Below the pieces are notes generated by a model. That model ran no database searches and was not told the DNA's origin. It worked only from the letters and a program-made list of their open reading frames with translations. Position numbers and translations under genes: made by a program. A stretch of 64,000 nt of DNA from a virus, in IMG/VR virus record IMGVR_UViG_3300042862_000066, positions 1 to 64,000 of that record; one strand, given 5' to 3'. Position 1 is the first letter of the stretch. Each line of letters begins with the position of its first letter. This document shows positions 18,801 through 42,892 of this stretch, piece after piece.

Positions 18801-21601
18801 TGAGCTAAGTCAAGTTCTATATCGGGATCTTTAGGAAGTTTTCCTAATAAAGTTTTTATCTCATCAAGGATTTCTTTTTGTTTTGCATAGAACGTATCCT
18901 TGATTTTAATTCTAGTATTTTCGTTAAGCCACTTCTCTCTTAATTTTATAAAAGGAAACGTACCACGATCATATCCTTTTTCAATAAGGAACTCTTCGTG
19001 AGCTGCTAAAGAGTTTGTAAATAGATCCGGCAATAACTCCTCTCTATATAGTTCTCGTGAAATATTTCTAAACTCTCTAAGTCTTTCTGCTATAGCTTTA
19101 CCCTCTGCATCTTTAGGTTGACCAGTTGTTGTATAGTTAGAATGTAACTGACGATACTCTCTCCATAAACCTTGTAGTTCCTCCCCAGCATCTAATCGCT
19201 CAGGGGTAGTAGAAACTCCCATACCTGTAGTAAGATTTTGAATCTTAGCTAAGACTTCATTTCTAGCTGATTCAGCTTTTGATCCAATCTCATCATCCGG
19301 CCCTTTACGGAATACCTCATACCGAGCGTAGTATTCTTTAGTATAAGGGTTGTGAAAGTATTCTCTTTCAAACTTCTGAAGATCTTGCTTTAATTTTAAA
19401 ACTTCTGTAGTATCTCCAGATGCAATGGCTGCGACTTCGGCCGCACGGATGCTATCTCGCATTCTGTCTATATCAGCACGATACTCTTTAAACGGATTTA
19501 ATAAAGTATGTACTTGACGATTTTCAAATATACCAGTCTTAGGATCTTTAGATCCCTTATTATCTAGGAATGTTACCAGTTTTCCGAACGCTGCAGGGTT
19601 AGATTGATTATAACCTGCTGCCTCAAGTAGGGGTTTGACATTACTTAAGAAAGCATTACCTTTATTTTGTGCAGATGTAAATACATCCGTCATACGATTT
19701 TTTACGTAGGTAGCAAAACCAAATACCACAGGGTCTTGGTTATATATAAATCCTTCCAAGAAAGAGTTTAAAGCATGTGCATCTCCTAGACGACCTGTCA
19801 TTAAGTACTCTATCTTTTCATCTGTAAGATATGCTCCTTCTTTATAGCTGATATCTTTAAGTCTGTTATAGAGATCATCCTCTACAGCTCCTAATTTTTC
19901 ACCGGCTTCTACTCTTCCCTTTAATGCTAGGAATTGTCTTAGAGGATCTCCCGCTAATCCCCAATAATCTTTTTGGCGCATCTCAATTATATCCTGAGAC
20001 GCCCCTCTTTTTTTCAAGTCTTCCATGATGTCACTGAATCTTTGATCGATTCTTTCCCTCATTGGTCCGATAGTCTCTTTAATAACTTCTGATGTACCGG
20101 CTAGATAAATCTTGTTCGTATTGTTACGAGCAGTTTGTATCTCAGTATTGATAGAACCGATTAATTCAAATACAGGATTACCTGTCTCAACCTCTCCATT
20201 AGCAACTCCATCGTCCAATTTCTTTTGGAAGTCTCCTAGGAAATTGTCCCAGTAGTTAATGATATTATTATAATAGAATACAGTTGCTACATTGTCTTTA
20301 GAGTTCGGGTCTTTAACTAGGGTAACCAAGTTATTATTAAGACGACGGATCATATACTTTGTACGCAGTAAGCTATTAATAAAAGCCTCTGTATGTTTTC
20401 TAGCAAACTCCATATCCTTAGCCAGCTTTCCCATCTCACTAGTTAATTCTTGAGAGATGTCTTGGTAAGGTGCTAGGTTTTTATATATCTCTTGTAAGTC
20501 AGGGCGTTGGAAAGAATCTTTAAGGACCTCTTTCATTCCTGCATAATCTTTATTCTTTTCAAGAAGTCTTATTTGTTTTTTGATCATCTCAAAGAAAAGG
20601 TTTGTACTTTTCTGAAGATCGTTTTCTGAAAAAGACTTCATTGCTTTTACGTAGTCATTTACCTCAGTAAGGTATGCTGCTACGTCTTCTGATGTTACCC
20701 CTTCCAGGTTAATATCAAACTGTTCTACTACTAACATGTCAGCGAGTTCGCTAAGTGTGGTATCAGCTTTAAGGTTTTCTACCTTTAACTTTTCTTTAGT
20801 AGTACCAAATATCTTTCTGATTAATTGCTTTAATGCAAATAATAGATTGTTAATAAACTTATTAAATGCCGAGTCTTGTTTATCTACAGCTCCTTGTGTT
20901 AAAGCAATTACCAAAGCTTCTTCAAGAATAACATTGTCATTCTCATCTAGTGTAGGGTAAGCGGCTCTAGCAGTCTGAACTATATTAGCTCCTTGAGGAG
21001 TAGACATAAGTTCTTCTACCAACTTCTTGAAGAGAGCAGGGTTACTCATTTGTATAGCCCTAACAAGAGGGTGTGCAAATTCATGTAAGACAGTCTTCTC
21101 TGTCATCAATTCTGGTACAAGATAAACTTTTCCAGCAAAGAAAAATCCAGGCTGACCTGACCAAACGTTTACATTCTTAGTTATTTCTTGAGCCTCCTGT
21201 GCTGATACAAATACAGCGGGTACCCCTAAGTTAGAGCTTAACTGCATAGCCAATAAACTAGCAGTACTCTTTGCCTTAAGCGTTGCTTGTGATTTAGTAT
21301 CAAGCTTAATAGGATCTTTCATTACCCGGTATTCTGGAAACGCATTCATTACATCTTCGAAACCTGATAAAGCGTCGGTCATAACTACTTGTCGTCCCTC
21401 ATCATTCCATACATTTAGACGATCCATTAACTCCTTAAACTCTTCCTCTGTCGGAACTACGGGCTCCTGCCCCATAGGCAAGTCTTGATTCTTAATCATG
21501 AAAGCACGTAGAACTTCTGTAGAAGCGTTGATACCTAAGCCAATACTTTTAGCGTAGTCTGTTAATGAATTTAAGGAATTTGGTAAAGGGCAGGCGCTCA
21601 T
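15875..21601 (-). CDS. Giant cargo/ejection protein with HExxH motif (1908 aa)
   Basis: This 1908-aa, mostly alpha-helical protein has LHEFAH with the zinc-type H173-E-x-x-H, followed by a helix and an acidic LEEALVIAL segment that could give a third ligand: a metallopeptidase-like N-terminal domain. The long middle is charged and coiled-coil rich. One hydrophobic segment lies at about 1727-1750 (VIAMTMAISMLFGF). It follows the RNA polymerase gene by one base. In crAss-like phages very large proteins in this position are virion cargo injected with the DNA, and this one may also cut peptidoglycan-linked or host proteins. It could instead use its fold only structurally; the catalytic role is unproven. 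Confidence 0.72.
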   Translation of the reverse strand: MSACPLPNSLNSLTDYAKSIGLGINASTEVLRAFMIKNQDLPMGQEPVVPTEEEFKELMDRLNVWNDEGRQVVMTDALSGFEDVMNAFPEYRVMKDPIKLDTKSQATLKAKSTASLLAMQLSSNLGVPAVFVSAQEAQEITKNVNVWSGQPGFFFAGKVYLVPELMTEKTVLHEFAHPLVRAIQMSNPALFKKLVEELMSTPQGANIVQTARAAYPTLDENDNVILEEALVIALTQGAVDKQDSAFNKFINNLLFALKQLIRKIFGTTKEKLKVENLKADTTLSELADMLVVEQFDINLEGVTSEDVAAYLTEVNDYVKAMKSFSENDLQKSTNLFFEMIKKQIRLLEKNKDYAGMKEVLKDSFQRPDLQEIYKNLAPYQDISQELTSEMGKLAKDMEFARKHTEAFINSLLRTKYMIRRLNNNLVTLVKDPNSKDNVATVFYYNNIINYWDNFLGDFQKKLDDGVANGEVETGNPVFELIGSINTEIQTARNNTNKIYLAGTSEVIKETIGPMRERIDQRFSDIMEDLKKRGASQDIIEMRQKDYWGLAGDPLRQFLALKGRVEAGEKLGAVEDDLYNRLKDISYKEGAYLTDEKIEYLMTGRLGDAHALNSFLEGFIYNQDPVVFGFATYVKNRMTDVFTSAQNKGNAFLSNVKPLLEAAGYNQSNPAAFGKLVTFLDNKGSKDPKTGIFENRQVHTLLNPFKEYRADIDRMRDSIRAAEVAAIASGDTTEVLKLKQDLQKFEREYFHNPYTKEYYARYEVFRKGPDDEIGSKAESARNEVLAKIQNLTTGMGVSTTPERLDAGEELQGLWREYRQLHSNYTTTGQPKDAEGKAIAERLREFRNISRELYREELLPDLFTNSLAAHEEFLIEKGYDRGTFPFIKLREKWLNENTRIKIKDTFYAKQKEILDEIKTLLGKLPKDPDIELDLAQQYEKLNQLMSPYRDDDMQPEATAMDVKNVNEIKKTQALIEIIKQNIAKASGLTSMEHEELSSFFAKLKNDEEITPEERLRANDLIVKKTKFGLSAGDKTRLYELYDDLAELQQSLPTDYYLDIINNYMSLVDMDKMMEKFKFKSITKTNANEILTEEFLNFLEEENTEFADWFKENHIMKKAVDKEGNEYIKVERVKAWSVTRPRTAEYLETHEFTNSDGVLETIPSVPNMNYYDRIVKDDYITTPVTMLEALEKGDPTLANMDNKGNWLPKLDTEDKRFVNEKYFDVAKNNKPLHRALVALMKWHLEFQEGNPDPSKLFLDIPRFMRSGYEAKLNMFTVEGKMENPISSWWKRTKALFAGSADDYDRGYSFNNQQEMLKGDLFDDQFAGIPITGLSNLDEKEVSLDLTNGMLRYMISAEKQRALIEMNPMARALQSVLSDDANVVRQVKGLNKSMLENYSISNMWEKGTKLVGKGEKSVRGKAIDNFVEREFEGRLNKGVIGQDSDNVWIHKMADNIMRASAFGYFAMDIPSALKNSFGLRIQSMIEAAGGKYFNNVNYAKGVAWSNKVSWEISLELYKFGPKSHDTQLVEIFDAYQGRFQDKFVEHGSRSLTKDALGGLSWMTSFRKWTELNSTLSIFGAMMNHEKSVERTVDGKKIRIAYIDAWETVDGQIQLKEGVDPEWGIGGIKFKTFKNRVQGVVNNLAGSFAKFDYAEADRYVAFRFAIAFKRWFLRMFLNRWQFRGSIRDPRYRFDAAVGDTAMGFHLEAIRAVGRMIKTRGEYTQFLSDTEKSAMLKTIMDVATVIAMTMAISMLFGFDYDDKNKFAKLRARSGPLPFLGVSDKEKPFNLGGWFTNHSLYMTMQLKNESMQWLPIPGYGADNYIDMLSMESVSMTNTWDNYKKIIAGLGTHASHYLFGTDDSKAYFDQREGPYDWMQEDGSKVLTYFFRSVGLSGKTLSPDMGVTNMVKATNFR

Positions 21602-21602
21602 T

Positions 21603-24600
21603 TTAACATTTTTTATTTTGTTCGATTACATCGTCATCACTAATCGGTTGTTCTTTTTGTACAACTTTACGTCCTTCTGAGAACTGTAAGTAATGAGGAT
21701 TGACATAGCCAAAGTTACGGAATAATTGTTCTGAAAGATATAGGAATGTTTGTTTAGCAACAGGAGCAAACTTAGGATTTTTAGCAAGAGGTGTATTCTC
21801 TGTGTATCCCAGCATGTACTGACCATAGCCATATTGATCGAATACTATAAATCTATTTGGCTTAGCCATTTGATTTTTAATATTAGCAATTGCCTGATCA
21901 ATTATTACTTTGTTTTCAGCAAGTGTATCATCAGTAAGCGCATCAACTAAATTTATTTTATCGCTACCTACTTTAGTAGGCCTTGTTCCTTTCTTAGTTG
22001 GTAATCCTACGGCATTAGTACCTAGACCTCTCCATACAGTATTGGTCCCGGCTGTTCCGCCTTCACCAGTTGTTGTCTCATTGTATAGAACTAAAGCATT
22101 CGGGTAGTCTGTTTTAAAAGATGCCATAGTCTCGTCAGTAAGAACACCCGTCATAGGTTGTGATATTCCATCCTTCTTCTCTAATGCATATTTAAAGGTT
22201 CTGATACCAGTTCTTGGATCTTCCACAAGAGTTACTTGAGAAAGAGTTGTGATATCATCCGCTGTTCTAACCTCTGATTTAACAGGCATTTGTTTTCCAA
22301 ACTCCATATTCCAATCTAGTTCTGGAGCAACTCCTTCTGCAGCACCGGAAAGTACATAGGCAACATTAGTCGCTCTAGATAGTGCAACATATTTCATCTG
22401 GTTTCTTTCCTCGATGTCCTGAGATTTGCTTATAGAACCAAGATCAACAAAGATGTTGGTATAGGTAGCTCCTTGAGACTTATGAATGGTATGAGAATAC
22501 CCATAGTCCAAAGTCTTTTTAATTACTGTTCTACCTTGATGTTTAATCGCACGGTCTGTTCCGAATGATTCTTTAAAGGCATAGTAGTATCTCCAAAGAC
22601 TATTCTCAACCTTAGCTAAAGACGCAAGTTTTTGTGCTTGCTCCCCTAGGTTGTCATACAGAGAGTCTTCATTGTTTCTACTTAACATAAATACTTCTAC
22701 AGGTTTAGCTCTCTTGTCAGAAATATCTTGGATTACAAGTTTGTATCCTGATCCTGAGTATGGCTGTAGTCCTGCGGCTTCTACAACATTTTTTGCAATA
22801 GGCTGATCCTCAACGTATTCTGCAGAAAGTACTACATAGTCTACTGAGTTATTAATATCATACTCGCCGTTTTTATTTTTTTTGTAGTTATCGTAACCCA
22901 TCAAAATTTCTCCAGGTACATACTCTTCAGTATAGCCTAATCCTTGACGTACTGCATTGTTATATTGCGGAACTCTTTCGTTAAGATAAGTAATAACTCT
23001 AGTGAAGTTTCTATTAGCTTTAAAGTTATCCGATCTAAAAGCATTAACAGCTGACTGTATAAATGATTTACCGCTGTCGTTAAATACGATACCTTCATTA
23101 CCATTAAGCGCTGTTCTGTGAGCGAACGCATCCTTAGTAGCATGTAGATTACCTCTAAGCGCATCTAAGATTGGGCCTAACGGATTACCAGTTGCTTGTC
23201 TTTCGACCTGAGTCAATTCAGATTTATTAGAAACCTCTCGGAATACTGGGGAATTTTCTTTTAATGTTACTTCATCAGAAGTTGAATTTGGTGCGACAGG
23301 TTTAATCTGTGCAGGGTCTCCTACAAAGATTACTTGTTGACCATCCTTCTCGGCCTTGTCTTTTATAAACTCGAATAGATCAGGGCCTATAAAAGATGAC
23401 TCATCTATAATAATAACATCTGCTGGTATAACGGGCTTCTCTTTAGCAGGAGACATGTTTAATGTATCCAAGTCTACTCTTGCTGGGTCGATGTTAGGAG
23501 CTAAAGATAAAACCGTATGAATAGTTTTAGTTTTTCTACCTACCGCCTGGGCTAGTACTCCTTTTGCTTTATGTGTAGTAGCAGTAATATCTACGCTCTT
23601 ACCAGCTTTATTTAAATAGTCTAATAAGATTTTAGTGATACTTGTTTTACCAGTACCCGCATAACCCATAAGAGTATACATGTTGTCCTCAATCGCTGAG
23701 TTCTCGTCAAAACCTTTACCTATAAATTCAGCAATATTATTAAGGGCTTCTACCTGTTGAGAGTTAGGTTGGAAACTAATACCAAGAGTATCTAGGTTAA
23801 TTGGTATTCCTCCTACTTCTATAGTTCTTGAAACACCTTCTTGATCTACGTCAACCTTTTCTGTTTCAACAGCAATCTGAGCTATAGGATCAAGATTAAT
23901 AATTCTATTTTTTCCTTCTCCTAATACAAGAGCATCTTTAGAAACATCCTCAGTATAGTTTTTAACCTTCTTGCTTAGAAAGTTATCCTTAGAATACTGA
24001 TCAGTAAACAAACCGGTGTAACTAGTAACTATAGCTTGTTGCTCAGGGACTGACTTGTTTATAAAATCGTTATAAGGTTTTTCTAATAACAAGGTTGTCA
24101 TCTCTGTAGGCAATGCTCTTACCATACTATAAGTAGTCTTAAGATCTGTACCGGTTTGTATCATTGAGAACAATGCAAATCTTTGGAAGATCTTTGAGAT
24201 GTTTTCGTTATCGGTAGGGTCACTTACTTTAGATACACTTGGGTTAGCAAGGTCTTGTAAGTTATTATGATAAACGTTTAGATCGTCAGATGTAAGTAAG
24301 GTATTAGCGAACTTTACATTTGTAATTGTAGTTGTACCATAGGGTTTTGTAAATGCTTCTAGGTTTGAAAGTATCGGGTATGTTGTAAACAATTCTGGAT
24401 ACTTAGCCTTGATACCTAATACTTGTCTACCGTAAGCACGTTCCCCATAGAACATATGACCGTGGTAGTTCAAGTTATCTAAAGCCCTGTCGCGTAACAC
24501 AGCCTCGTATGCTTTTTGATTACGATACGGTTCTGATTCGTCTACGTTAAAAGATTTAAAGTACTTATTAAATTCTTCAGTAGCTTTAATAGCGTCTTCA

Positions 24601-27600
24601 GAATTCTCGGCGTAAGACCTAAGAGTTTCTCTCTCGAATAAAAACTTAGTAAATAACTTAAGGCCTGTCTTCTCATCGTAAAAATCGAATACAGTTTGAT
24701 CTACTGGGGCAGATGTTTCCCATTGCAAGGGATTACTATATGCACCAGATTCAAATAAGTTTTTAATCGTAGCATAATCTGCATAAATCTTATCGCCTTT
24801 AATAGCTACTCCTGATGTAAGACTTGTTACTTCTCTTACATCTCTGCTTACATCCTTACCTTGGTAAGTAGTAGGGTTAGTGCTAAAGTTATAGTAGTCT
24901 TGTTGGAACAAGAAGCTCATCAAGTCATTTCTGAAAGTTCTTTGGAATGTTTCATCATCCTGACCAGTCTTCTTCTTGATACCCATAATTGGTACAAGAC
25001 CATCTTTCTGTTTAGCGTATACGTAATTTAGAGTTGCGTTCATAGCCTGACTATCGCGCAGTGGGAATAGTCGGTTATACTGTTCAATAATAAAATCTTG
25101 AATCTTAAATGCACTAATAGGTGATTCATCAGCAATCTTTCTAATTGACTCTCTGCTAATACCATTACTAACTGTCTCCATTTTTTCTAACTTCATGCGA
25201 GCATCCCATAAGGTACTTGTCTTATCGTTATCAAATTTAAGAGCCTGTGTAAGTTGTGTAACCTGTCCTGCCATTTCTTGGATCTCAACAAAGTGTGCAA
25301 ATACAGCTTTGTCTGCTTCAGTATATCCTGCAAGTCTAGATGCTTTCATGTTAGTCTCTAGATTATTCTCATCAAATAAACTAGGTTGCGAAGCGTACTC
25401 TCTTAGTAAGTTAAATACTTTAGACTTGTCATAACGACCCTTATCGTTTAGATACTCGCCCGGAGTTGCTGTAAAATCTCCAGACTCAAATAAGATAGTA
25501 TTACGCGCTTCAATTCTGTAGAACATACCTACATCTTTATATCCTACTGGGACCGCAAACTGACTCTTAAGTTTTCTTTGAAGTTCAATATAGTCTCGGA
25601 TAATAGGCTGTGATACAAAGTACACAGCTTGCTTAACTGGTACGCCTGCCTGAATCATAAATAACAATGAAGGTATAACCTCCTTGTTACCTTGGATGTC
25701 AAAGATCCATGCGTCTTTAGCAACGTCTACTGCTCCATTAATCATTTGGTTAATGATATCAGCAACACGATTACTTAAGTCAGCAGAGTAAGCAGACGAT
25801 AAAGATATCTTGTTATCTATCTCATTATGAGGCAAGTATAGTTCTTGAGTCATAAATACGGGCTGACCTTTTCCGTCAGTCGTAAGAATTCTAGTAGTAT
25901 CCATTACAAGACCTGTTCTTGCAAACAAGGTATTGAATGTATTATTAACTGCAATGATACCAAGTACTGCTTTACCTACGCTATTAGCCTGATGCTTGTA
26001 CAAGTTTCGGCCTAATTCAAATATTTCAGTAGGAGACTTCTTAGATCCCGGCGCTTCTCCGCGGATCTGTTCTGCCATTGTATTAGCAATAGGCTTAAGA
26101 ATGTCTGTACCGTTAGGAGTAATAAGGTTGATAAAGTTTTCAGGCATAGATAAGATATCTACGCTGTCTGCTATTAATGCATTCTCTATACCCTTAACGT
26201 TGTCTCCTTTGGCTAAAGAAACAATAGTTTGTTCTGTACCAAAGTTCTCAATAAAATCATAGATAGTTTGTTCGTCCTCACTAAGAGGGTTCTCAAACTC
26301 CATCATCTTAAAGATATTTTTTATTTCATCTCTAGTTACTTTTCGTCCCATCTCTTCAGATAGAGACTCAAGTGTTGAATCAGATACTGTTTTTACTACA
26401 GCCTTAATGTTAGGCATCATAGTAAACATCTTATCGATGTCAAAGTCACCACCTGATTTAGCTACAATCTCTGCTGGAAGAATTACAATGTTGCCAGATT
26501 CCTCTGGTAAGAATTCAAATACCTCCATGAACTCCATAGAGTTAAGACCCTGTACTGGAATACGTGCGGCTACCATAGTAACCATTGCTCTGTTATCTCC
26601 ATCGCTTAACCAAGACTCCTGTTTGATTAAAGTATTAAGCGCTTTCAATGGTGTAGTACCATCTTGCTGAGCTTTCTTTAATACGTCATCTCTCTTAAGT
26701 AAGTTTTTAAAACTTCCCTGTAAAGAGATTTTAACTTTTATTGCTTTGGTACCGATAACATTTTTGTTCTCATCGAGTATCTCTTCGTAGAACGTTAGAC
26801 CATTTGTACCGTACTGTTTAATTTCTTTTTCAGTAGCATTACGCATGTTCTTATTAGCATCTTCAAATCCTACTCCAGATACCTGTACTAACGCCTCACC
26901 ATTAATCTTTTGATTAATTAATCGTTTCTGAATAACACCTACTAGTAGTTTTTCTATCTTATCTACCGATAAAGAAAGTTCCAAGCTGTTCTTAAGTTCT
27001 CCTGTCTGACCATCGTAGTCAATAAAGTTTAATTCATGCTCAGCAAGTTCTTGTCTAGTAAGTTCGCGTTTAACAAACGCGATAAGATCTTCCATGTTGT
27101 TACCAATCTCCTTACGCAGTTGATCTTTTTTAATCTCTACTAAACGAGCAAGGTTGGCTTCATACTTAAGAAGCTTCGTGTAATTTTTAGAATCAATTTC
27201 TTGACCGCTTTCTAAAGCTTGTTCCCAAGCTAGTACTCTTTCTGTGGCATCTTTTATGTCTGGTCTCCAGTCTGTCGGAACGCCATTCTCCATTAAGCCG
27301 TCCTCGATAAGTTTACGAAGCTGAGTAGAGAAAGTAACCTTCTCGTTAAAGTGATCGTGTACTTCCAACTGATCTTTAAAGTAATCCATAAAGATTTCGT
27401 TAGGAGTAAACTCGTAACCCTCTTCGTCAATAGCTAAAGTTTTATCTCTATTGCTACTAGCATCTTTATAAAACTTATCAGCTGTACCATTCTTAGTAAG
27501 AGTATTGATTTTAGATCCAGAGTTTAACAAAGCATAGTCTACACCTTGTTCTAACATCTTTTTCTGTAATGCCTCTAAGTTCTTACCCTGAATTAAATTA

Positions 27601-30600
27601 GGGATAAGTGGCATCAAAGAGTACTTATGAAATGCATATAGAGGAAGACCATCTGTTTTAAGCGGTCCCCAGTACTGCATCTTTTTAACTGGGAAGAATT
27701 GAAGAAGGTCTTCAGTAATTTCTTCGCCATTAATTATTTTATTATATAGAGACTCCTGGTTAGTAGTCCATTTATTTAATGACATAAGTAATGCACGATA
27801 AGCATCAAAGTTTATCCAACCTTGACCATCGGCTTCAGTCATCTTCTCGTATTCTGAGAATCTCTTTGTTATATCTTTTACAGCTCTCTCAATTTGTTCT
27901 TCAGAAGCTCCTCTGTCTTTTAAACGTTTCTTTGTATACGCTACAGCAGACTTAACATAATCAGCATGATATACAGACTTGGTTATAGGATCTTCCATAA
28001 CTGCAGATACCATTGTCTTACCAAACTTCTTCGGAGTATATCCGAACTTTGAAGCAAGACTATTAGCACTAAGTCTAGCATTGATGTAGTCTTGCATGTA
28101 TAGGTCAGTACGTGGGATTCCTCCTGTGGCACCGATACCTGCATTACGTTTAAAGAATTCATCTTTAGCGTGGTTATATAAACCAGGGTCTCCGTAAAAC
28201 ATTAATACGGTCTCAAGATTTTGTTGCCAGCTATTAGCGACGTAAGCCTCAGCAATAGAATCTATAAGTTCTTGTTTACGCTCAGCACTAATTCTGTTAC
28301 TGTATTCTTTCTCACCAAGCATCTTCTCAAGAAGAGGATCTACTAAAGCAGAGTTATTATAGAAGTCAACTTTATTTAATTCCTTGTTGAATTCAGAAAC
28401 TTGACTAGTTAGATACTTACCTATTTGTGTTTCTACTTGCTCTCTTAGCTCTACATCGTTATTCAATTCAGCTAAGAATTGTTCCTGAGTAGCAATTCCT
28501 TTCTCACTATATTTTTTAAGTGCGGTTTTAGTATTGCTGTTTAGAATCTTATCAAAGATTACAAACTCGGACCCGACTTTCTTATAAGTATCATTTCCTA
28601 CTAATGCATTACCTGCTACCTTTTCTGATTGTACTTTTTGAATACGCTCATACTCTGATCCAAGATGCTGAGTAAGATCTTTAATAAATTGTATCTTACC
28701 TAGAGACTGACCATTCTGTGTTTTTTTAGAGAAGTCAGAAAGAGTAATAAGATGTCTTATTTTATTTTCTGCATTTCCAAAGTCATTAGGGTCTCCAGTA
28801 ATTAAACGGTACAGGTAGGTAGTAGACTTATCCGCATGACGGGTACCTTCAGATACTCCGTAGAGCATCATCATATACAAATCTTGTAAAGTCTTAGTCA
28901 TAGCATCAGCACTAGCTGAAGCAACGCCGCTTCTGTCAATTATATTCTTAACTGATTTAGTTTCAAAGCTAGCACCAGACATATTTAATAATTGGATCTC
29001 AGCTTTAATCGTATCACCATAGGAGTTTCTCCAAATAGCTTTCTCACCATCCTTAGTAAATAATCTAGCCATGAACTTAGAAGACTTCATGAATGGATTA
29101 CGAGACTTAGCTAGGTGATTCATACTTAAATCAGTAGCGCCTTCTACGCCCTCTTGTGTAAGAGCAGTAATTGTATCAGCACCATTAATACTATCTATCT
29201 GGTTCATCAAAGTACCGCGTAGAGATTTCTCATATTGATTTTCTCCCTCAGCGTTAGACACTGTAGTATCAGAGAAATCGTCTGACCACTTAAGCTGGAA
29301 CTTCTGTATAGCAGTAAACTTAGGAGCGATACCACCAAGCATTGCTTTAAGTAAACGATCGTTTGTATTAACCTTATACTTAGCAAACAACTGACTAGGT
29401 CTAGTTATTACAATAGGGTTCTTAGCCCCAACAGTATTGTTGTATGTATATATACCGAACTTAAGATGTCTATGTAAGTCATAGATAGCCTTAAAGGTTT
29501 CGTCTTCCGAAGAAAGCATTGCTTTTCTAGTAGTAGCGTTATCTTCTAATGGCATACCGATATCTTCCATAAAGCTAAATAGTCCATCCAGGTTCTTCTT
29601 ACTAAGAAGATTACCATGCTTAGCCATTACAGCCTTTATGTTTAAGCTATTAACATTATCCTTAGATAGAACTATAAAGTCTCCTTCAGGTGCTATAGCA
29701 AATGCATTATCCCATTTAGAACCAACCTTGCGATATTCTCCTCCAGCACGTACTGGAGTAATACTTAATGTAGTTTTTACAGTAGAACCTGCAGTCTGAT
29801 TAATCTCATCCTGCTGAATCTCTTCTTCATCCTTATACTCGTTAGCCAATCCCATATGAAGAGACACAAGAGGAATACGCTTCATAGTCATGATCTGCGT
29901 AATCTCTGTCCATAACTCTTGGGAAGTTCTTTCCATTGTAGAAGGAGGCCCGACCTTTTGCAAGAACTGCTTTATCATAGGGTAATCCTCTGATGCAGCA
30001 GACAACATGTTATAAACATCATCTATGTTTCTAGCTCCGTCAGTAATATTATAGATACGGTTCCATGCAGCGTTGTAGTCCATCAGCATAGGGAACCCTA
30101 ACTTATTGAGTCTAACGCTACCATCTTTCTCGTAGGCATAAAGACTACGGATAGTGTATAGGAGAGTAGGAGAAGCCAATGCTTTCGCTGAACTCTCGTT
30201 ACCAGATTTAGCTTCGAACTCGTTCTTTAGAGATAGTTTACTATCATCCATACCCTCTAGTTCCGCCAACTGACGATCTTCGAACTGCATGAACTTGCTG
30301 TTCTCCATGTGGTATTTGATTACCCCTTCTGGTTTAGCTAAGTTATTTGGATCACCAAAGTGTCTTAGGGCATATGATAACATGTCTATCTCATAATCGA
30401 TATCTTGTATATCAAATCCTTCTGCCACCATGTCATTACGGTCTAGGATCGCGTTATATAATGCCTCAGTAAGTTTCTGTTCAGCATACTTATACGCTGT
30501 TGCTCTTCCGGCTACTGTACGAATTACAGATGTAGTAAACGTTTTAGTTCCAGATCCATTTAGTTTGTCAATAGCTTGAGAGAATAACGCATCTATAGTA

Positions 30601-33600
30601 GATCCTATTAATCTAGAATCCTCATATGATAACTTGCTAGGGTCGCGTAATTCTTGTGGGGTCGTAGACTGTACAGTTCTATTACTATTTAGAGTAGTAA
30701 ATACTCTATTAGCTTGGTTAAATGTGTACTGGTTAAGATCTCCTACTCGTAGCTTCTCATACATCTCGTTAACATAACTGCTGTTACCGCCGTTAGTTAG
30801 GATGTCTTCCGATCTAGTTTTACCGAATAGCTCCATCAAGAAATCAAATATCTTTTGGAAGATGTTTCTCTTTACTGGTGACTTAGCTACAGGCTTCTTA
30901 TTACCAAGCATATACTCGCGGAAGTCTTCTGCTAAGTATTCTTCTATTTCCTCTTCTGTTGCTTTTGCAAACTCTACTGTGTTACCAGAGAATGCTACAA
31001 ATTTTCCTTTCTGTTTTCTAGCCTCGCTATAAAGTTTTTCTCTTTCAACCTCGGTCAAGAACATTTGGGTAAATCCGTGCCAAGCTTCGTGGTATAGATC
31101 AGAGTAATCTGACCCTTTAAACAGTGTGATACCATTTACATCCCAACGAGCAATACCATTCTTAGTAGCAGTATTGACAGCATTAAACATTACCTTAAAT
31201 GGTATATGTTGTCTAAGTGGGCTATTCTCATACCAGGTCTTAGCGGCAGCAATTTGTTCTCTAGTTGCTGTAACGTTACCCTGGATTTTTAATTTGTTTT
31301 TATTCTTATTGATGAATTCGTCATCACCAGAAAGCTTATCTAATATATCGCTATCAGCACTTGTCTTTCTTCTACGGAAAACTTGTTGCTTAGTAGCTTC
31401 ATTTACAACCACTTCTGTAGCTGCAGGTTTTTCAACTACCGGAGCTTCTGTAACTACTTCAGTAGTAGCAGGTTGATTATCAGCTTTGATAGCAAGTTTC
31501 TTAAAAGCTCTATCATTAATGATGTCTTCGTATGCTCCTACTGTCGTTGCTCCAGATTGCTCATAAGTTAAAAGACTGTGCTGGTACTCGTGTTCCATCA
31601 CAAAATTCTCGAAGTCTTGATATGTAGCAAATGCGTCTTCAGCTAATGCTGTAGCAAATGATCCATCTTTTTGTTTACGAGATTTAGTCCAGGCTTTCTC
31701 CTCAAACTTCTTTTTAAGAAACTCTCTATTAATAATAATCTTATTATTAGTTCGATCGTATCTAGCAGCTCCCGGCTCACCCGTTGCTGCTTTAATGGAT
31801 GATCTATCTATTACTGGAATACCATTATAGGTTTCTTTTTTAATACCAAGTAATGGGCTAATAAGATCATCGTACTTTTCGTATATCTTTTCGTACGCTT
31901 CTAATTCGGCAGCAGACATTTTAGTTTTATCTATCTTACCGTCTATCTTATAGTTTTCTATATTAGGTATAGCCTTAAGAAGTTCTTTTTGTTCTTCGGC
32001 TCTATACTCTGCTACCTTAGTATCTTTAGCAGAAACTTTAGCAGACTTTGCAATTATTGCATTTATCTCACCAGTCTTACCTGTAAAGATTGCTGTCTCT
32101 CGTGGTGATAATGTCTCTTTATTAATTACTTTATTAGCAATAATATCTAAGATAATATCAGATACGATATTCTTATCTACAAATTTTGTGTAGTCTTTAT
32201 CGCTAATGATATCCTTGCTTTCAACAATAACTTTAGCAGTATCAGCATTGATTGGTGCTACCTTAAAATAAGGATTATACTGTTTAACTTTACCCTCAAC
32301 ATCTAAGTCTACTTTTACTGTAGCAAAACTTTCTAAGTACTCCGAGTAAGGAACATTTGTGATAGATGCTTTGTCACCAGTAATGGTAAACATAGATACC
32401 ATACCATTAGCGCTAGCCTTAGCAGTGTCTATTACATATTCTCTTCCACGTCCTTTTGCATTAGTCTTAAAAGCTGCCGTAAGTTCTTCTCTTGATTTTG
32501 CTGTATTAGAAAGGTTTAGTTTTTCTCCTTGGTATTTAACAAAAAACTCTCCAGTTGAACTGTCGACACCGTAGCTAATATCTTTAACAGAACTTAATAC
32601 GTAAGTACCTATTATCTTTTTCTTATCGGCATTAGTAATAATCTCCCCTGCAGTGTCAGTATCTACATCAAGAATAAGGCTTACGATATTATTAACTAGC
32701 TCGTCACTAAGACTTTTATTTATGATTGGTACGGGAGTATTAGTTTCATTAGGGGTAACGTATATACCACCAAATGAATTTTTAGAAACTGCTCCCGGAG
32801 CAAAGAAACTAAAGTTTAAGTTCTGCTTTCCAAAGTAGCTTCCGCTATAAGGAATAGGCTTAGCATCAATGTCACTTATTGCACCAAAGCTACCAAAGTC
32901 TATAGAGTTAATGATCTTGTTTCCTTTAGCGCCTCTGATATAATCATAGGCTGATTCTAGGAAATCAAAACCTTGTCTTAAATATTCTCTAGCCTCATCT
33001 ACAGACATGTTAAAGTTCTTAGCAATCTCTTGGGGATTCTGAGTATTAGTTACTCTGTCCACGTCTGCGGCGCCATCCTTAGTTTTACTAGGAAGATATC
33101 GGCTATTATAATAAACTACTTTACCGTCTTCTGCTACTTCATACTTATCATTAAGTCTAACAATATTTCCTTGTTTATCTGTAAGAGCATATACAAAAGC
33201 ATTCTTGTAATCCTCAATTATATAATCAGTATCTACTCCAGACTTAATTACTGATGCTACATGAGGATAGGTATCATTTACATCTATCTCGTTGTATCGC
33301 ATCAGAGTAAGGAATAAACCTCCGTCTACTCCTTTGTAGGGAACACCTTGCTCAGGAGTTTTAGCTTCTCCTGCCAGTAGTTTACTTAATACGTCTTTTG
33401 TAAAGTTTGTATAGAACTTCATTCTTGGGTCAGAACCATTTTCTTCTTTACCCTCAAGAAGTTCCTGTATAGAAGTACTTAACGGACTGTCCGGTTTTCT
33501 TGTTCTACCATATACAGTATTAGATGAACCTAATGCTAAAGAAGTTTGAACCTTGTCAATCTGATCTTGAATAGTAAGTTCTTCTTTAGTCTTAGCTAAT

Positions 33601-33956
33601 TCTACCGCAGGATTAGTATCTACTCCTAGGAAGGCAGCAGTTTCATCAAAGCCGTCTTTATCATCAGCTACTAGTCTAGCTAGTCCTCCCACCTCTCTTA
33701 TATCTAAACCAAGGTCTTCAAGTTCTGCAAACTTTTCTTCTACGCCCCATAGTTGTTTTATGAAAGGTATAGACATGCGAGCATAGTCGATTGCTGAGTT
33801 CTGATTATTTGTAAGACCGTATACACGGTTATACATATCATTCAGATACGTCTTTAGATCAAATGGAGTTTTATTTTCCACATAAGTCAAAAGATCCTTC
33901 GCAATTTTAGTACGAAGGATCCTTAATTGTTTATCGCTAAGAGTACAAGTAATCAT
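21603..33956 (-). CDS. Giant virion RNA polymerase - SF1 helicase fusion (4117 aa)
   Basis: This single 4117-residue chain has several enzyme modules. HEYQH (789-793) and HEAWH (956-960) are two zinc-peptidase-like motifs. DFDID at 2504-2508, preceded by ARIPVQGLNSME and LPAEIVAKSGG, mirrors the cellular beta-prime catalytic NADFDGD loop and equals the motif of the crAss-like RNA polymerase of Cellulophaga phage phi14:2 gp66. The C-terminal region is an SF1B (Dda/RecD2-like) helicase: GYAGTGKT ending at T3438, a DESS Walker B, GDPAQIKPV and TIHKSQGATY with VALSRA. By analogy it is packaged, enters the cell with the DNA and transcribes early genes. The helicase may unwind template. It is about twice the phi14:2 polymerase (about 2180 aa). 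Its start shares a base with the upstream stop. Confidence 0.88.
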   Translation of the reverse strand: MITCTLSDKQLRILRTKIAKDLLTYVENKTPFDLKTYLNDMYNRVYGLTNNQNSAIDYARMSIPFIKQLWGVEEKFAELEDLGLDIREVGGLARLVADDKDGFDETAAFLGVDTNPAVELAKTKEELTIQDQIDKVQTSLALGSSNTVYGRTRKPDSPLSTSIQELLEGKEENGSDPRMKFYTNFTKDVLSKLLAGEAKTPEQGVPYKGVDGGLFLTLMRYNEIDVNDTYPHVASVIKSGVDTDYIIEDYKNAFVYALTDKQGNIVRLNDKYEVAEDGKVVYYNSRYLPSKTKDGAADVDRVTNTQNPQEIAKNFNMSVDEAREYLRQGFDFLESAYDYIRGAKGNKIINSIDFGSFGAISDIDAKPIPYSGSYFGKQNLNFSFFAPGAVSKNSFGGIYVTPNETNTPVPIINKSLSDELVNNIVSLILDVDTDTAGEIITNADKKKIIGTYVLSSVKDISYGVDSSTGEFFVKYQGEKLNLSNTAKSREELTAAFKTNAKGRGREYVIDTAKASANGMVSMFTITGDKASITNVPYSEYLESFATVKVDLDVEGKVKQYNPYFKVAPINADTAKVIVESKDIISDKDYTKFVDKNIVSDIILDIIANKVINKETLSPRETAIFTGKTGEINAIIAKSAKVSAKDTKVAEYRAEEQKELLKAIPNIENYKIDGKIDKTKMSAAELEAYEKIYEKYDDLISPLLGIKKETYNGIPVIDRSSIKAATGEPGAARYDRTNNKIIINREFLKKKFEEKAWTKSRKQKDGSFATALAEDAFATYQDFENFVMEHEYQHSLLTYEQSGATTVGAYEDIINDRAFKKLAIKADNQPATTEVVTEAPVVEKPAATEVVVNEATKQQVFRRRKTSADSDILDKLSGDDEFINKNKNKLKIQGNVTATREQIAAAKTWYENSPLRQHIPFKVMFNAVNTATKNGIARWDVNGITLFKGSDYSDLYHEAWHGFTQMFLTEVEREKLYSEARKQKGKFVAFSGNTVEFAKATEEEIEEYLAEDFREYMLGNKKPVAKSPVKRNIFQKIFDFLMELFGKTRSEDILTNGGNSSYVNEMYEKLRVGDLNQYTFNQANRVFTTLNSNRTVQSTTPQELRDPSKLSYEDSRLIGSTIDALFSQAIDKLNGSGTKTFTTSVIRTVAGRATAYKYAEQKLTEALYNAILDRNDMVAEGFDIQDIDYEIDMLSYALRHFGDPNNLAKPEGVIKYHMENSKFMQFEDRQLAELEGMDDSKLSLKNEFEAKSGNESSAKALASPTLLYTIRSLYAYEKDGSVRLNKLGFPMLMDYNAAWNRIYNITDGARNIDDVYNMLSAASEDYPMIKQFLQKVGPPSTMERTSQELWTEITQIMTMKRIPLVSLHMGLANEYKDEEEIQQDEINQTAGSTVKTTLSITPVRAGGEYRKVGSKWDNAFAIAPEGDFIVLSKDNVNSLNIKAVMAKHGNLLSKKNLDGLFSFMEDIGMPLEDNATTRKAMLSSEDETFKAIYDLHRHLKFGIYTYNNTVGAKNPIVITRPSQLFAKYKVNTNDRLLKAMLGGIAPKFTAIQKFQLKWSDDFSDTTVSNAEGENQYEKSLRGTLMNQIDSINGADTITALTQEGVEGATDLSMNHLAKSRNPFMKSSKFMARLFTKDGEKAIWRNSYGDTIKAEIQLLNMSGASFETKSVKNIIDRSGVASASADAMTKTLQDLYMMMLYGVSEGTRHADKSTTYLYRLITGDPNDFGNAENKIRHLITLSDFSKKTQNGQSLGKIQFIKDLTQHLGSEYERIQKVQSEKVAGNALVGNDTYKKVGSEFVIFDKILNSNTKTALKKYSEKGIATQEQFLAELNNDVELREQVETQIGKYLTSQVSEFNKELNKVDFYNNSALVDPLLEKMLGEKEYSNRISAERKQELIDSIAEAYVANSWQQNLETVLMFYGDPGLYNHAKDEFFKRNAGIGATGGIPRTDLYMQDYINARLSANSLASKFGYTPKKFGKTMVSAVMEDPITKSVYHADYVKSAVAYTKKRLKDRGASEEQIERAVKDITKRFSEYEKMTEADGQGWINFDAYRALLMSLNKWTTNQESLYNKIINGEEITEDLLQFFPVKKMQYWGPLKTDGLPLYAFHKYSLMPLIPNLIQGKNLEALQKKMLEQGVDYALLNSGSKINTLTKNGTADKFYKDASSNRDKTLAIDEEGYEFTPNEIFMDYFKDQLEVHDHFNEKVTFSTQLRKLIEDGLMENGVPTDWRPDIKDATERVLAWEQALESGQEIDSKNYTKLLKYEANLARLVEIKKDQLRKEIGNNMEDLIAFVKRELTRQELAEHELNFIDYDGQTGELKNSLELSLSVDKIEKLLVGVIQKRLINQKINGEALVQVSGVGFEDANKNMRNATEKEIKQYGTNGLTFYEEILDENKNVIGTKAIKVKISLQGSFKNLLKRDDVLKKAQQDGTTPLKALNTLIKQESWLSDGDNRAMVTMVAARIPVQGLNSMEFMEVFEFLPEESGNIVILPAEIVAKSGGDFDIDKMFTMMPNIKAVVKTVSDSTLESLSEEMGRKVTRDEIKNIFKMMEFENPLSEDEQTIYDFIENFGTEQTIVSLAKGDNVKGIENALIADSVDILSMPENFINLITPNGTDILKPIANTMAEQIRGEAPGSKKSPTEIFELGRNLYKHQANSVGKAVLGIIAVNNTFNTLFARTGLVMDTTRILTTDGKGQPVFMTQELYLPHNEIDNKISLSSAYSADLSNRVADIINQMINGAVDVAKDAWIFDIQGNKEVIPSLLFMIQAGVPVKQAVYFVSQPIIRDYIELQRKLKSQFAVPVGYKDVGMFYRIEARNTILFESGDFTATPGEYLNDKGRYDKSKVFNLLREYASQPSLFDENNLETNMKASRLAGYTEADKAVFAHFVEIQEMAGQVTQLTQALKFDNDKTSTLWDARMKLEKMETVSNGISRESIRKIADESPISAFKIQDFIIEQYNRLFPLRDSQAMNATLNYVYAKQKDGLVPIMGIKKKTGQDDETFQRTFRNDLMSFLFQQDYYNFSTNPTTYQGKDVSRDVREVTSLTSGVAIKGDKIYADYATIKNLFESGAYSNPLQWETSAPVDQTVFDFYDEKTGLKLFTKFLFERETLRSYAENSEDAIKATEEFNKYFKSFNVDESEPYRNQKAYEAVLRDRALDNLNYHGHMFYGERAYGRQVLGIKAKYPELFTTYPILSNLEAFTKPYGTTTITNVKFANTLLTSDDLNVYHNNLQDLANPSVSKVSDPTDNENISKIFQRFALFSMIQTGTDLKTTYSMVRALPTEMTTLLLEKPYNDFINKSVPEQQAIVTSYTGLFTDQYSKDNFLSKKVKNYTEDVSKDALVLGEGKNRIINLDPIAQIAVETEKVDVDQEGVSRTIEVGGIPINLDTLGISFQPNSQQVEALNNIAEFIGKGFDENSAIEDNMYTLMGYAGTGKTSITKILLDYLNKAGKSVDITATTHKAKGVLAQAVGRKTKTIHTVLSLAPNIDPARVDLDTLNMSPAKEKPVIPADVIIIDESSFIGPDLFEFIKDKAEKDGQQVIFVGDPAQIKPVAPNSTSDEVTLKENSPVFREVSNKSELTQVERQATGNPLGPILDALRGNLHATKDAFAHRTALNGNEGIVFNDSGKSFIQSAVNAFRSDNFKANRNFTRVITYLNERVPQYNNAVRQGLGYTEEYVPGEILMGYDNYKKNKNGEYDINNSVDYVVLSAEYVEDQPIAKNVVEAAGLQPYSGSGYKLVIQDISDKRAKPVEVFMLSRNNEDSLYDNLGEQAQKLASLAKVENSLWRYYYAFKESFGTDRAIKHQGRTVIKKTLDYGYSHTIHKSQGATYTNIFVDLGSISKSQDIEERNQMKYVALSRATNVAYVLSGAAEGVAPELDWNMEFGKQMPVKSEVRTADDITTLSQVTLVEDPRTGIRTFKYALEKKDGISQPMTGVLTDETMASFKTDYPNALVLYNETTTGEGGTAGTNTVWRGLGTNAVGLPTKKGTRPTKVGSDKINLVDALTDDTLAENKVIIDQAIANIKNQMAKPNRFIVFDQYGYGQYMLGYTENTPLAKNPKFAPVAKQTFLYLSEQLFRNFGYVNPHYLQFSEGRKVVQKEQPISDDDVIEQNKKC

Positions 33957-36900
33957 TATTCGCAGCCTAAAGAGTTATCAAATTCGTCGTCAATTTCTTT
34001 CTGGTCAGCAGCCTTAGCTTTTTCTAAGTCTGCATTAATTGCATCGACCCCATTTACATCTACAGCGTTACTAACATTAGTATTAGAGTTCTCTACTTCA
34101 TCTGGAGTTACGGTTACCCCTGTTGGGATATTTTCCGCATTCTGTCTGTACATATACTCTACACCGTTTTTAAGATCAGTTGGGTTCAATATCATAGTTT
34201 CTTCTGAATTAAGCGGTTTAATTCTAATAGTATTGTCTGAGGTATTCTTTCCGAGTACTTGTACAATACCACTTCTACCGTATTTTTTTCTGTCTTTCAT
34301 TACCAGCAAGTCGTTCTTGCCTACTTCTTCAAAGGTAGGAATTTTTGAGGACAATTCCTGCATTTTTTTATTCATAAGTTTGGTAAAGTCCTCGATAGAT
34401 AGACCCTCATCCTCTGCCATTAAGTTGGTAGTATTGTTACGGATATCTTCAAGTTCTTCCAAAGTTGTGGCGTCCTCAATGCTTTGTTTAACCTTACCTT
34501 TTATTCTTTCTTTTACTGTATAAGTTTTGGCCTTACCTGTAAGTACATCACCAACTTGTTCAGTAATTTCAAACATCTCGATGTTTTTACTAACCTTTGC
34601 TTTCTTAGCACCTAATTCGTAAGATCTAATATTAGCTACAGCTTTTTTACCTAAGGCCTCTTCAATGACATCATCATTTTTATTTATGAGAATCATGTCA
34701 GCATTCTTGGCAAATCGTCCTGATGTTGTAATAACCGTGTTACCAGCATCAGCGGCTGCTTGCATTCTAGTAAGAGTCTCTGCGTAAACCTCAGCTGCTT
34801 TTTTACTATCTGACTTAAATAAACTAAATAGAACGTCGCCTAGATTTTTATCTCCTACAGCAATACCGTTGTCTGCTAATACCTCTTTAAAGATATCATC
34901 TGTGTTTATTACATCTTCTCCTAAAGCACTGACATCCATATTGTTATGGACGGTGGTATAGATAATCTTACCCTTAAACTTACTTTTTACTTTGCTCTTA
35001 GGCTTATTTCCTTTCTTATGTGCATCTATAGCAGCCATAGCCTGTTCTTCAGTATCAAGATATTCAGCTATGATCTCTCCGTCTTTGATAACATTATATG
35101 TATCATCGTTGTAAAGATAAACTGTGTATCCATCTACTTCTTTTTGTTCTTTTACAGCACTTGGATCAACAGTAACAGGTGCTCCAGTCAAACCATTTCT
35201 TTTATTATAGTTAGCTATAACTCTTGCTGCTCTTGGTTCACGTTTAATATAACGAGATATATCACTGTCAGGAATAATTGGTTTATTATTAGCAATCTGT
35301 TCCTGGTTAAATAGCTTAAGATCAGCTCTAAGAATTGTTTGCAAATCCTTAGGCATTTCATTCATAGGGGTATCTACTGTAATAGCTTGTCCACCTGCAG
35401 TAGTTGTAGGTGTAATTACATTAGACTCTCCTTTTGAAAGTATAGGATTACCTTGGAACTTATTAGATATGATACCAACTGCCTCATCTAAAGCACTATT
35501 ACTAGAAACTTTTTTAAATCCTAGAAGCTTACCTAAGAATTTTCTGATCTTGTCTACAAGCTCTGTCCAAAGATTCTCATTGGTTTTTTCATACGGGATA
35601 GCATTTAAAGCATTCTGTGCCAATGGGTTAGTCAGGGCCTCGGCCATAAACTTCTCAGGACTTGCGAGCATTGTATTAAATACAGCAACGTCATTAGGGT
35701 CTGTTAAAGAATCTTTGTTTGCTTCTCTAAATGTAATCGCAGCATCCATTAATCCTTTAATAGCTTTTGAGAAAGCTGGGTCTGATAACCCTTCTTCTGT
35801 CATCTTCTGGATCAACGGATTTAATACAGAGTATTCAAATGCAACTTGGATGTCTCCAAAGTCTGATGCTGAGTAACGTAAGTCTACGATTATTCCATCA
35901 TTCTTAGAATAACTAAATGCGATAGGCTGAGTTGTAGAGATTTCCATCTCCTCCTCAGGTTTAACAAACGTAAGCATTCTACGGGCTAATGCTCTTGCTG
36001 CAGGCTTACCGTATCTGTTCGCTATAATATAATCTAGTACGTCAGATGTTTTAACCATCTGAGACTTAAGCTTAGGATCTAATCCTAGGCCTTTCATTAA
36101 ATCTCGTAAAGATCGTTTGTCGTTCTTTGATTTAAAATCATATGCTCTAACAAAAGACTCGGCGCCCTCTTCTGCAATTACTTTACCCGCTAGGTTAAAT
36201 CCATTCTCTTCTTCAAAGTCTTCTAGGAAGTCAAGGATCTCTTTATATCTAGGGCTATTTGTTTCGATAGGTTTTTTAGTCGCAGCATCATAAAATGTAG
36301 ATGGTACTCTTTCGCCGCGCATCAAAGCGTCTATTTCATCAGGCATAAAGAATACGTTAAACTTTTCGTACATCTCACGGATAAGGTCATTAACCTTCAT
36401 TCTGTTTTCAAACTCGCTAAGAGACTCCTGTAATTTTTTAGCAGCAATCTGATGAGCTGCTCTAGCAGCACCACTAAACTTTTTAGCCGACTCTGAAAAA
36501 TACATAGGATCATTAAGAAGGTTAACCATCATACTAGCAGCTTTTGAATCTACATCAAGCTCTAGATAATCTTCTAGCATACCGTATACTCTGTCTATGT
36601 CTGTAGCAAGAAGAGGCTTTCCTCCTTTTGCTGAAGCAGCGGCAAGAACCTTTAAGTAGTTTTCTAAGTCACCTCGCATTTCTTTTTTAAAGTAATCTAC
36701 GTGACGAGATGCCGCGTCAGACTCCTCAAAATTTAATTCAGTTTGTCTTGTAGCTCCTATTATAGTTAAAGACTTAGAGTTAACACTTACTTCTTTTGTT
36801 TTAGTATTACCTTTTGCATCAGTATATTGAATAACAACCTTGTTATTCTTTTTGCTAATAATCTTACCATTAATAGGTTTACCAGCTTTACCTTTATAAC

Positions 36901-42600: not shown

Positions 42601-42831
42601 ACGCTTTATCTCATTATCTAACCCCGTAAAGAATTCATTACGACGTTCGATGTTAGGTTCCCGCATCAAGTCAGAATTTAACAACTTGCCATATACGGAG
42701 CTGATTTTATTATAACCAGCTTCATACTGACCTTGCTTCGTTTCCAAAGCTTTTTGAAAGAAGTTAAAGTCCGGCTGAAAAGGCTGGATCTGAGGGATGT
42801 AATCTGTTAGTCCTTGTATGTACGTTGCCAT
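39616..42831 (-). CDS. Virion cargo protein family (1071 aa)
   Basis: This 1071-aa protein starts MATYIQGLTDYIPQIQPF and continues with ETKQGQYEAGYNKISSVYG and RLSGVDLSLPENVQ. I associate this N-terminus with a conserved virion-associated family in crAss-like and other Bacteroidota phages. It is helical and Asn/Asp/Tyr-rich, with no catalytic motif seen. It begins a tightly coupled gene run (1071, 1887, 4117, 1908 aa) after the only sizeable AT-rich gap in this arm, so its upstream region may carry a promoter. A role as a scaffold or partner of the packaged RNA polymerase is plausible but inferred. Confidence 0.72.
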   Translation of the reverse strand: MATYIQGLTDYIPQIQPFQPDFNFFQKALETKQGQYEAGYNKISSVYGKLLNSDLMREPNIERRNEFFTGLDNEIKRLSGVDLSLPENVQTASKLFQPLIDNDYFRADMSFTKRYRGEKSKADRLRNNPNPKDKGVTAWDVGDRALDYQAEDFAKSSDEDSLNFAAPKYSPFVNATKDLFEFAKANDLNPETLSKQGGYIIKTTNGPQSIPTLQNVFSSLIVNDPRIKDMYSAQAYVDRKNYMKTNAEKFGGDEMAAETEYLKTKVDEINTFYRAQNQTDTETKDKTKTTKKVLEKKIQTEGVDPDLDKDIVEMYRQVVKDEQVIDAVTEKNDEVLSQTDAIDFDAMDRQGLRYRVDNAMTYFLMDGLVTTTARDYAMSKMKVDSEVDQYALAATNHRYRVIEEGIRFDNDKTLKIMDIAGKMYENGGNTVPGSGSGAGWLSDMFNQGILTKIPGPGNVSGDTNISQQNAGKLNNLFTANTSYAQNNMDQYLAIQNARLKNAATPEEKTLIEQEINSTLGLYTEEDKTTYENVEAPAWYNPLADVDLTTYNKSVIEGSGISWRDQKMMQLANWLAPTVEKVVPKTEKVYKGGLVKKNDKGEYELYADGLKNTTDPNHNDYYLKVNDRINLALHNGFNGIDKNNPSLVQIQNRIDANNGEMLSNIAVLDKYTAIQKENNQKIASQISGISNVDSWHSGQYFTSDFGRAKTEDEYLTDYIEAHKNDEQYYPRTEQGGYQRADTFSISEEDRIADMREDAIDKYEDLTEAYETLSKNNTSGLEIKAFSDPSLLGGLNKYFGEAATYNFDPAAYNTNSFSIAMDAYTKDMLPAMQSESFRNQQGSKFVYGNGFDITAGDYANLENDGSAQNALNFMMQTAMLNYGGKPDQNPNRPSGQFTMHALAANDATKVAMTWKPSRSFINENKGTDDLHGATWDLAAKVAAGQSPEITFFMDADKVKSVGFLSMQQTKEEFLVDNGGLELNNYNQYGGNIQFAKNATGGYSYTGMAKAFNAAGQLVQQPIFGTTYEDINALSNTYNEMFSGLSMANQRFLQSASANSGNKVYDANQLLENQ

Positions 42832-42892
42832 ATCTTATTGTAAAAATACGAAAAAAAATCTTTAAAGTTTAATAAACTTTTTAAGTTTAAAT
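42832..42892 (-). promoter_or_regulatory. AT-rich intergenic leader before the giant cargo genes
   Basis: This 61-base gap is almost pure A/T. It contains AAAGTTT/AAACTTT inverted repeats around 42863-42879, followed on the minus strand by a run of eight T (plus-strand A-run near 42852). This could be a weak terminator after the transcript from the right and/or a promoter region for the 1071-aa gene. No clear TAnnTTTG box is present, so a phage-polymerase promoter is possible. Confidence 0.35.

Follow-up and report, generated by a model that had tools for sequence, protein, structure and literature searches.

Terminal Cysteines of the Giant Virion RNA Polymerase of a Crassvirus and a Proposed End-to-End Coupling of Ejected Proteins

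The DNA analyzed here, referred to as the window, is the stretch of 64,000 nucleotides at positions 1 to 64,000 of the IMG/VR virus record IMGVR_UViG_3300042862_000066, a 119,397-base virus contig of the crass-like type. Crassviruses are among the most abundant human gut viruses. The minus strand of the window includes a gene for a 4117-amino acid chain that sequence comparison and structure modeling identify as a virion RNA polymerase of the crassvirus type, in the family of phi14:2 gp66. It is located between the genes of two other giant proteins, the counterparts of gp67 and gp65 by position and cysteine pattern. The cysteines of these three proteins are found at the ends that face each other. 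A comparison of about 95 distinct chains showed that when two of the genes are separate there is a terminal cysteine on both sides of the junction, and when they are fused that cysteine pair is absent. We consider it probable, on the strength of this pattern, that the three giants are hooked end to end by terminal disulfides for injection.

Distribution of the terminal cysteines

The RNA polymerase chain has exactly two cysteines in 4117 amino acids, Cys4 and Cys4117. The genes of the giants of 1887 and 1908 amino acids directly adjoin its own and share its strand, an arrangement also found in phi14:2. The genes and cysteine codons concerned are as follows.

21603..33956 (stop codon included; 21606-33956 without stop), minus strand: gp66-like virion RNA polymerase chain, 4117 amino acids
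33945..33947, minus strand: N-end junction cysteine, Cys4, of the RNA polymerase chain (MITCTLS...)
21606..21608, minus strand: C-end junction cysteine, Cys4117, of the RNA polymerase chain (...EQNKKC-stop)
33956..39619, minus strand: gp67-like upstream giant, 1887 amino acids, sole cysteine at residue 1886 (...NSLGCE-stop)
33962..33964, minus strand: junction cysteine of the gp67-like giant
15875..21601, minus strand: gp65-like downstream giant, 1908 amino acids, sole cysteine at residue 4 (MSACPLP...), has HEFAH
21590..21592, minus strand: junction cysteine of the gp65-like giant
39616..53933, minus strand: five further large block proteins (1071, 974, 969, 454, and 1275 amino acids), zero cysteines

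The eight block proteins, 12,655 amino acids in all, have four cysteines, one per facing junction end. Given four cysteines, the chance of finding one at each of the four ends is about 2e-13. The average cysteine content of the other window proteins is 1.56%. Two proteins encoded near the structural block (61516-62082 and 62095-63573) have about 5% cysteine, in contrast to the nearly cysteine-free cargo block.

The terminal cysteines were first evident from a comparison of C-ends, where nearly every chain ended near a cysteine. A reading of these ends as a packaging signal, "TDDE....C", was abandoned once the partner cysteines at N-ends and the fused chains came to light. The broad set, about 95 distinct chains, was drawn from IMG/VR and from phage records, with start codons read from the sequence. 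For the IMG/VR count, gp65 and gp67 neighbors were assigned by neighbor size, and "fused" means that no giant neighbor was found on that side, so that a missed neighbor would count as fused. At the gp66/gp65 junction, 79 split cases had both cysteines and seven fused cases had none; the corresponding numbers at the gp67/gp66 junction were 23 and eight, with one split case (L116) lacking the pair. Once four interrupted or borderline chains had been re-read, the rule held in 109 of 110 cases, scored junctions of the IMG/VR set and fused cases being taken together. The interrupted chains L102, L111, and L129, whose true ends carry cysteines, do not enter the final count, and L091, with its cysteine at position -23, was counted as obeying through a wider window of 26 residues. 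The wholly fused chains L121, L122, and L142 (5368, 4946, and 4730 amino acids) have zero cysteines in 15,044 amino acids.

The named phages follow the same rule, with the reservation that gp65 and gp67 were equated between distant families by position and cysteine pattern, which makes the comparison of families less independent than it appears. All three genes are separate, with cysteines at the C-end of gp67, both ends of gp66, and the N-end of gp65, in phi14:2, crAss001, DAC17, and Dulem virus 41, as well as in cr116, where the RNA polymerase gene is interrupted. The phi14:2 proteins end in TIC (gp67), begin with MAC and end in QECK (gp66), and begin with MSC (gp65). In crAss001, gp47 has one cysteine at position -3, gp50 has Cys5 and one at -9 plus one internal, and gp49 has Cys5 only. 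DAC17 obeys the rule despite having its gp67 homolog on the other strand. Where gp66 and gp65 are fused (p-crAssphage LMMB, cr3, cr127, cr271, and cr11), the gp67/gp66 pair is kept and the gp66/gp65 pair is absent. Where gp67 and gp66 are fused (cr118, cr55, FpV21, ProJPt, cr60, and cr7), there is no N-end cysteine and the gp66/gp65 pair is kept. A tree of the RNA polymerases requires four changes at the first junction and six at the second, and the independent tree pairs that differ in the cysteine pair all go the expected way (3.8 versus 0 on average for junction A, 3 versus 0 for junction B).

The possibility that the C-terminal motif is a by-product of translational coupling was rejected because gp67 homologs encoded on the opposite strand keep their C-end cysteine (DAC17, cr116, and crAss001), and also because the partner cysteine lies after the start codon. 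Literature searches gave no description of end cysteines, or of disulfides, in the cargo proteins of crassviruses; the Nature 2021 paper on gp66 and the 2018 paper on the crAss family might mention them.

The rule has a practical use in annotation, where the cysteines mark the true starts and ends of the giant genes and bring frameshifts and misassigned starts to light, such as those of L102, L111, L129, and crAss002 gp33. The annotated start of the latter (L056, MN917146) is probably 32 codons early. Initiation at Met33 gives MSCTPSN..., comparable to MSCGN in p-crAssphage, and with the start moved to this residue crAss002 agrees with the rule.

The polymerase chain and its helicase

The 4117-amino acid frame runs from ATG to stop with zero internal stops, as the original prediction had it, and was assigned here to the minus strand, the prediction having given none. 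The four motifs also lie where they had been placed (HEYQH 789-793, HEAWH 956-960, DFDID 2504-2508, and GYAGTGKT 3431-3438). The domains are as follows.

25257..28109, minus strand: RNA polymerase core, residues 1950-2900, with a gp66/QDE-1-like fold according to sequence and structure matches
26433..26447, minus strand: DFDID catalytic motif, residues 2504-2508, its three Asp invariant in 27 aligned chains
30765..31295, minus strand: zincin-like domain with HEAWH (956-960), residues 888-1064, conserved across crassvirus cargo chains
31407..31856, minus strand: module with HEYQH (789-793), residues 701-850, sporadic, with a related module at the C-end of L035
22344..23786, minus strand: Dda/RecD2-type superfamily 1B (SF1B) helicase, residues 3391-3871, Walker A 3431-3438, in a variable slot
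21606..22151, minus strand: conserved C-terminal tail, residues 3936-4117, which also comes directly next in chains that lack the helicase (L011, L023, L025, and L048)

The order common to the IMG/VR relatives is HEA(W/F)H domain, RNA polymerase, C region, slot, and C-terminal tail. Polymerase and helicase share one open frame in the independent contigs L028, L029, L036, and L037, which have about 68% identity in the polymerase core, and also in L022, L026, L030, L032, L033, L038, and L039. This agreement rules out that the long frame is a product of chance or assembly, or that the helicase belongs to a separate frame. In a near-identical contig (L006/L021), a frameshift is found within the helicase at about residue 3695 (L006 14259, L021 15210), which is a sequencing error or a real variant. 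Searches of phage records at the nucleotide level for the 4117-amino acid chain gave no match, nor did tblastn with 500 amino acids around the zincins, and a scan with the p-crAssphage RNA polymerase as the query found zero relatives.

A phmmer search of the PDB matched the chain to 6vr4 (phi14:2 gp66) with E 3.3e-21, in collinear stretches at residues 2033-2161, 2459-2520, and 2705-2803. An AlphaFold model of residues 1900-2900, built with 27 sequences, had a mean pLDDT of 80.8 and a pTM of 0.79. Foldseek aligned this model to 6vr4 with E 4e-30 and TM(query) 0.61 over 993 columns, and the next match was the RNAi polymerase QDE-1. Since AlphaFold and Foldseek place residues 1900-2900 on 6vr4, the predicted structure agrees, at the level of the whole fold, with the gp66-like polymerase first proposed from the DFDID loop. 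Delivery with the virion, the other part of that proposal, is consistent with what is known of crassvirus homologs, which are virion cargo: the phi14:2 proteins were identified in virions by tandem mass spectrometry, and crAss001 gp47, gp49, and gp50 by mass spectrometry (PMC10172136). By analogy, the window chain would be present in the virion and transcribe early genes, properties known from the homologs only (PMC10172136).

Residues 3395-3867 match Pfam AAA_30 (1.8e-22, 80 bits versus a cut-off of 27) and PHROG 325, "Dda-like helicase" (1.9e-80); the match to UvrD_C_2 is just under its cut-off, and PDB relatives of the region include Dda and RecD2. The AAA_30, PHROG 325, and PDB matches thus concur on the SF1B helicase of RecD2/Dda type that had been recognized from its motifs. 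One chain does carry both enzymes, but the fusion is not unique to it. It occurs in cr118_1 and cr50_1, already deposited in GenBank as "DNA helicase" with the fusion unremarked, and a helicase is present in 18 of the 89 chains with a complete C-end, being N-terminal in one (L128). Its presence requires about 12 gains or losses on the tree of these 89 chains. The slot is occupied by a helicase in the closest relatives of the window chain and in L026, L030, L032, and L046; in L011, L023, L025, L048, and others it has none and the tail comes sooner. The helicase is a free gene in crAss002, cr127, and Rudgehvirus. A move from a second copy was considered and rejected, as in the records with a fused helicase a second full-length copy is absent and the extra matches are weak only. 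A standalone helicase was found in two records without a fused one (G028 and G031) and in none of the others, many of which are fragments.

The helicase is gained and lost as a module and is therefore not essential to virion RNA polymerase function in general. The comparisons suggest that it is an optional accessory of the injected polymerase, where it would most likely help the enzyme open, or keep moving along, the incoming DNA. Another reading, with a little less than an even chance, takes the slot as a cargo bay like that of polyvalent proteins, whose helicase, AlkB-like, ADP-ribosyltransferase (ART)-like, and zincin modules would work on nucleic acid that is damaged or belongs to the host, and not in transcription. 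Its contents do differ among relatives (2OG-Fe(II), ART-like, zincin, and helicase), and the dozen helicase-state changes point the same way. L027 (slot 8916-11906) has an AlkB-type 2OG-Fe(II) oxygenase-like domain (1.5e-5, under the Pfam cut-off), and L046 (slot 6434-12652) has a helicase beside a 2OG-Fe(II) domain of weak score; this module is possibly an injected nucleic-acid repair module. L034 (slot 9032-11653) has an ART-PolyVal-like segment (E 0.024, weak), and L035 (slot 3557-6565) has an ADP-ribosyltransferase-like segment (weak PARP/ART-PolyVal) followed by a HEKAH zincin-like module. Against this reading, the module matches are weak, the helicase excepted, and no host target is known. 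It concerns the helicase only and is compatible with the coupling of the three giants. The slot suggests that phages use the injected polymerase as a platform for additional enzymes.

A proposed disulfide-linked train

In the mechanism that we favor, the RNA polymerase chain would be the catalytic subunit and the middle one of three cargo giants (gp67-like, gp66-like, and gp65-like). It would be packed into the head and leave the particle before the DNA does. Two disulfides would form in the particle, one between the C-end of the gp67-like protein and the N-end of the polymerase and one between the C-end of the polymerase and the N-end of the gp65-like protein. These partners are proposed because the pair missing from a fused chain is precisely the one that would face across the fused junction, whereas the other pair persists. 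A disulfide is proposed because it is the simplest bond for two single end cysteines, is superfluous on fusion, and is undone in the cytoplasm. Joined in this way, the chains of 1887, 4117, and 1908 amino acids would form a single thread, without branches and about 7,900 residues long. In the unfolded state it could be drawn through the narrow tail, with the order of the proteins and their 1:1:1 ratio fixed. The reducing host cytoplasm would open the bonds, and the subunits would refold into a machine for early-gene transcription. Internal cysteines would be avoided as they would cross-link the thread, and related phages would reach the same continuity by gene fusion, the junction pair being then lost. 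On balance, it seems likely that in crassviruses and their relatives the terminal cysteines couple consecutive cargo as a redox train that the host cytoplasm uncouples, and that fusion and cysteine pair are interchangeable. To our knowledge, there is no precedent for covalent, reversible end-to-end coupling of ejected proteins. Such coupling would address how proteins of 150-550 kDa pass a narrower tail, in order and in matched numbers, and the terminal-cysteine rule makes it cheaply testable. According to PMC10172136, crAss001 virions have disulfides in the tail, the tail constrictions are under 50 A, and the cargo proteins have to unfold, at least in part, on their way out.

Several observations weigh against this mechanism. 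The bond itself is deduced from sequences, which cannot show it, and homology is the sole basis for the function ascribed to the helicase. Reduced and non-reduced crAss001 virions have been compared, and no cargo cross-link is reported in the accessible part of that study (PMC10172136). Independent contrasts are few (four and three, on supported branches), and each junction alone misses p<0.05. Cysteine avoidance is not universal, since many chains of Suoliviridae, Intestiviridae, and Crevaviridae hold internal cysteines, up to 12 in one complete chain. The cysteine of L091 is 23 residues from the end. Finally, L116, the sole exception at the gp67/gp66 junction, has no junction cysteine where its polymerase is split inside the catalytic region (motif 642 amino acids from the start); this split is probably a frameshift or an intron.

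Instead of joining the cargo proteins to each other, the cysteines could tether each of them to another partner (portal, core, scaffold, membrane, or a metal ion). A single cysteine close to an end that is flexible might act as an anchor, and in the crAss001 virion other structural proteins are linked by disulfides (PMC10172136). We nevertheless judge this unlikely, as it leaves unexplained both the loss of exactly the facing cysteine on fusion while the other junction keeps its pair and the complete lack of cysteines in the wholly fused chains; one cysteine per end is also poorly suited to metal binding.

A different role for the chain, that of a polyprotein processed to maturity by a packaged zincin metallopeptidase, either its own or that of a neighbor, had been raised in the original prediction. 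The HEAWH motif is more than a chance occurrence because it and a downstream Glu helix, EEYLAExFRxYM, are nearly invariant in 25 aligned sequences; the domain is conserved in the clade and in other crassviruses, and the annotations of p-crAssphage and cr11_1 call its counterpart a zincin. Few relatives share HEYQH (window/L021 and L030), and the C-end of L035 has a related module with HEKAH. The gp65-like giant (15875-21601) has a conserved HEFAH near its N-end with a downstream EEA(L/V), and phi14:2 gp65 has a similarly placed HEIMH. Processing of this kind was proposed by Iyer et al. for N4-like virion RNA polymerases (PMC5512222). The results do not support it here. Neither gp66 nor gp67 of phi14:2 has an HExxH, and the zincin-like domain changes chain between families, its counterpart in crAss001 being at the end of gp47. 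The HEAWH region gave no Pfam peptidase match, a poor model (pLDDT 58), and no Foldseek match. Since both ends carry conserved junction cysteines, the chain would appear to stay whole until injection. Self-maturation, which would cut the proposed train, is therefore improbable and unlikely to be general; by analogy with polyvalent proteins, the zincin may cut other targets (proposed in PMC5512222).

Least credible is the absence of any linkage, with ejected proteins merely avoiding cysteine and the terminal ones being functionless inherited end sequences: the N4 virion RNA polymerase (3500 amino acids), gp51, and gp52 are without any cysteine, and avoidance may by analogy be general among ejected giants with the crassvirus ends as the exception, but N4 has no end cysteines either, crassvirus end sequences have diverged strongly except for the cysteines, and in several lineages the presence or absence of the facing pairs goes with the splitting of the genes.

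Comparison with known systems

The polyvalent proteins of Iyer et al. (2017) are multidomain chains that are injected and combine zincins with a changing set of enzymatic modules, much as the window chain would. The accessible part of that paper (PMC5512222) mentions neither crAss-like chains nor junction cysteines. The RNA polymerase, helicase, and zincin-like domains recognized by sequence in the window chain suggest a likeness to this class. Another giant ejected single-chain RNA polymerase with an HExxH domain is gp50 of N4, in the Schitoviridae (3500 amino acids; PMC12633501 and PMC5512222). It is Cys-free and, unlike the window chain, has a T7-like polymerase, no helicase, no terminal cysteines, and no partner-chain rule. 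The likeness to Dda and RecD2 lies in the sequence of the helicase domain, which is free-standing there and embedded in a polymerase chain here.

Closer counterparts are found among crassviruses. cr118_1 QOR58373.1 (4946 amino acids) and cr50_1 YP_010110216.1 (4774 amino acids) combine a zincin-like HEAFH, a DFDID RNA polymerase, and a Dda-like helicase, as in the window. In contrast to the window chain, the helicase ends these chains, with no C-terminal tail, and in cr118_1 a gp67-like part appears to be fused in; the records name no RNA polymerase. crAss001 gp47, gp50, and gp49 are homologous subunits with end cysteines, as in the window, and differ in having no helicase, in the zincin-like domain being on gp47, and in gp47 being on the other strand. 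phi14:2 gp66 (6vr4), unlike the window chain, has 2180 amino acids without helicase or zincin, and a search throughout the phi14:2 record found no matching SF1 helicase. Its RNA polymerase fold and DFDID context are the same as those of the window chain, and gp65, gp66, and gp67 share with the window both the three-gene order and the pattern of terminal cysteines.
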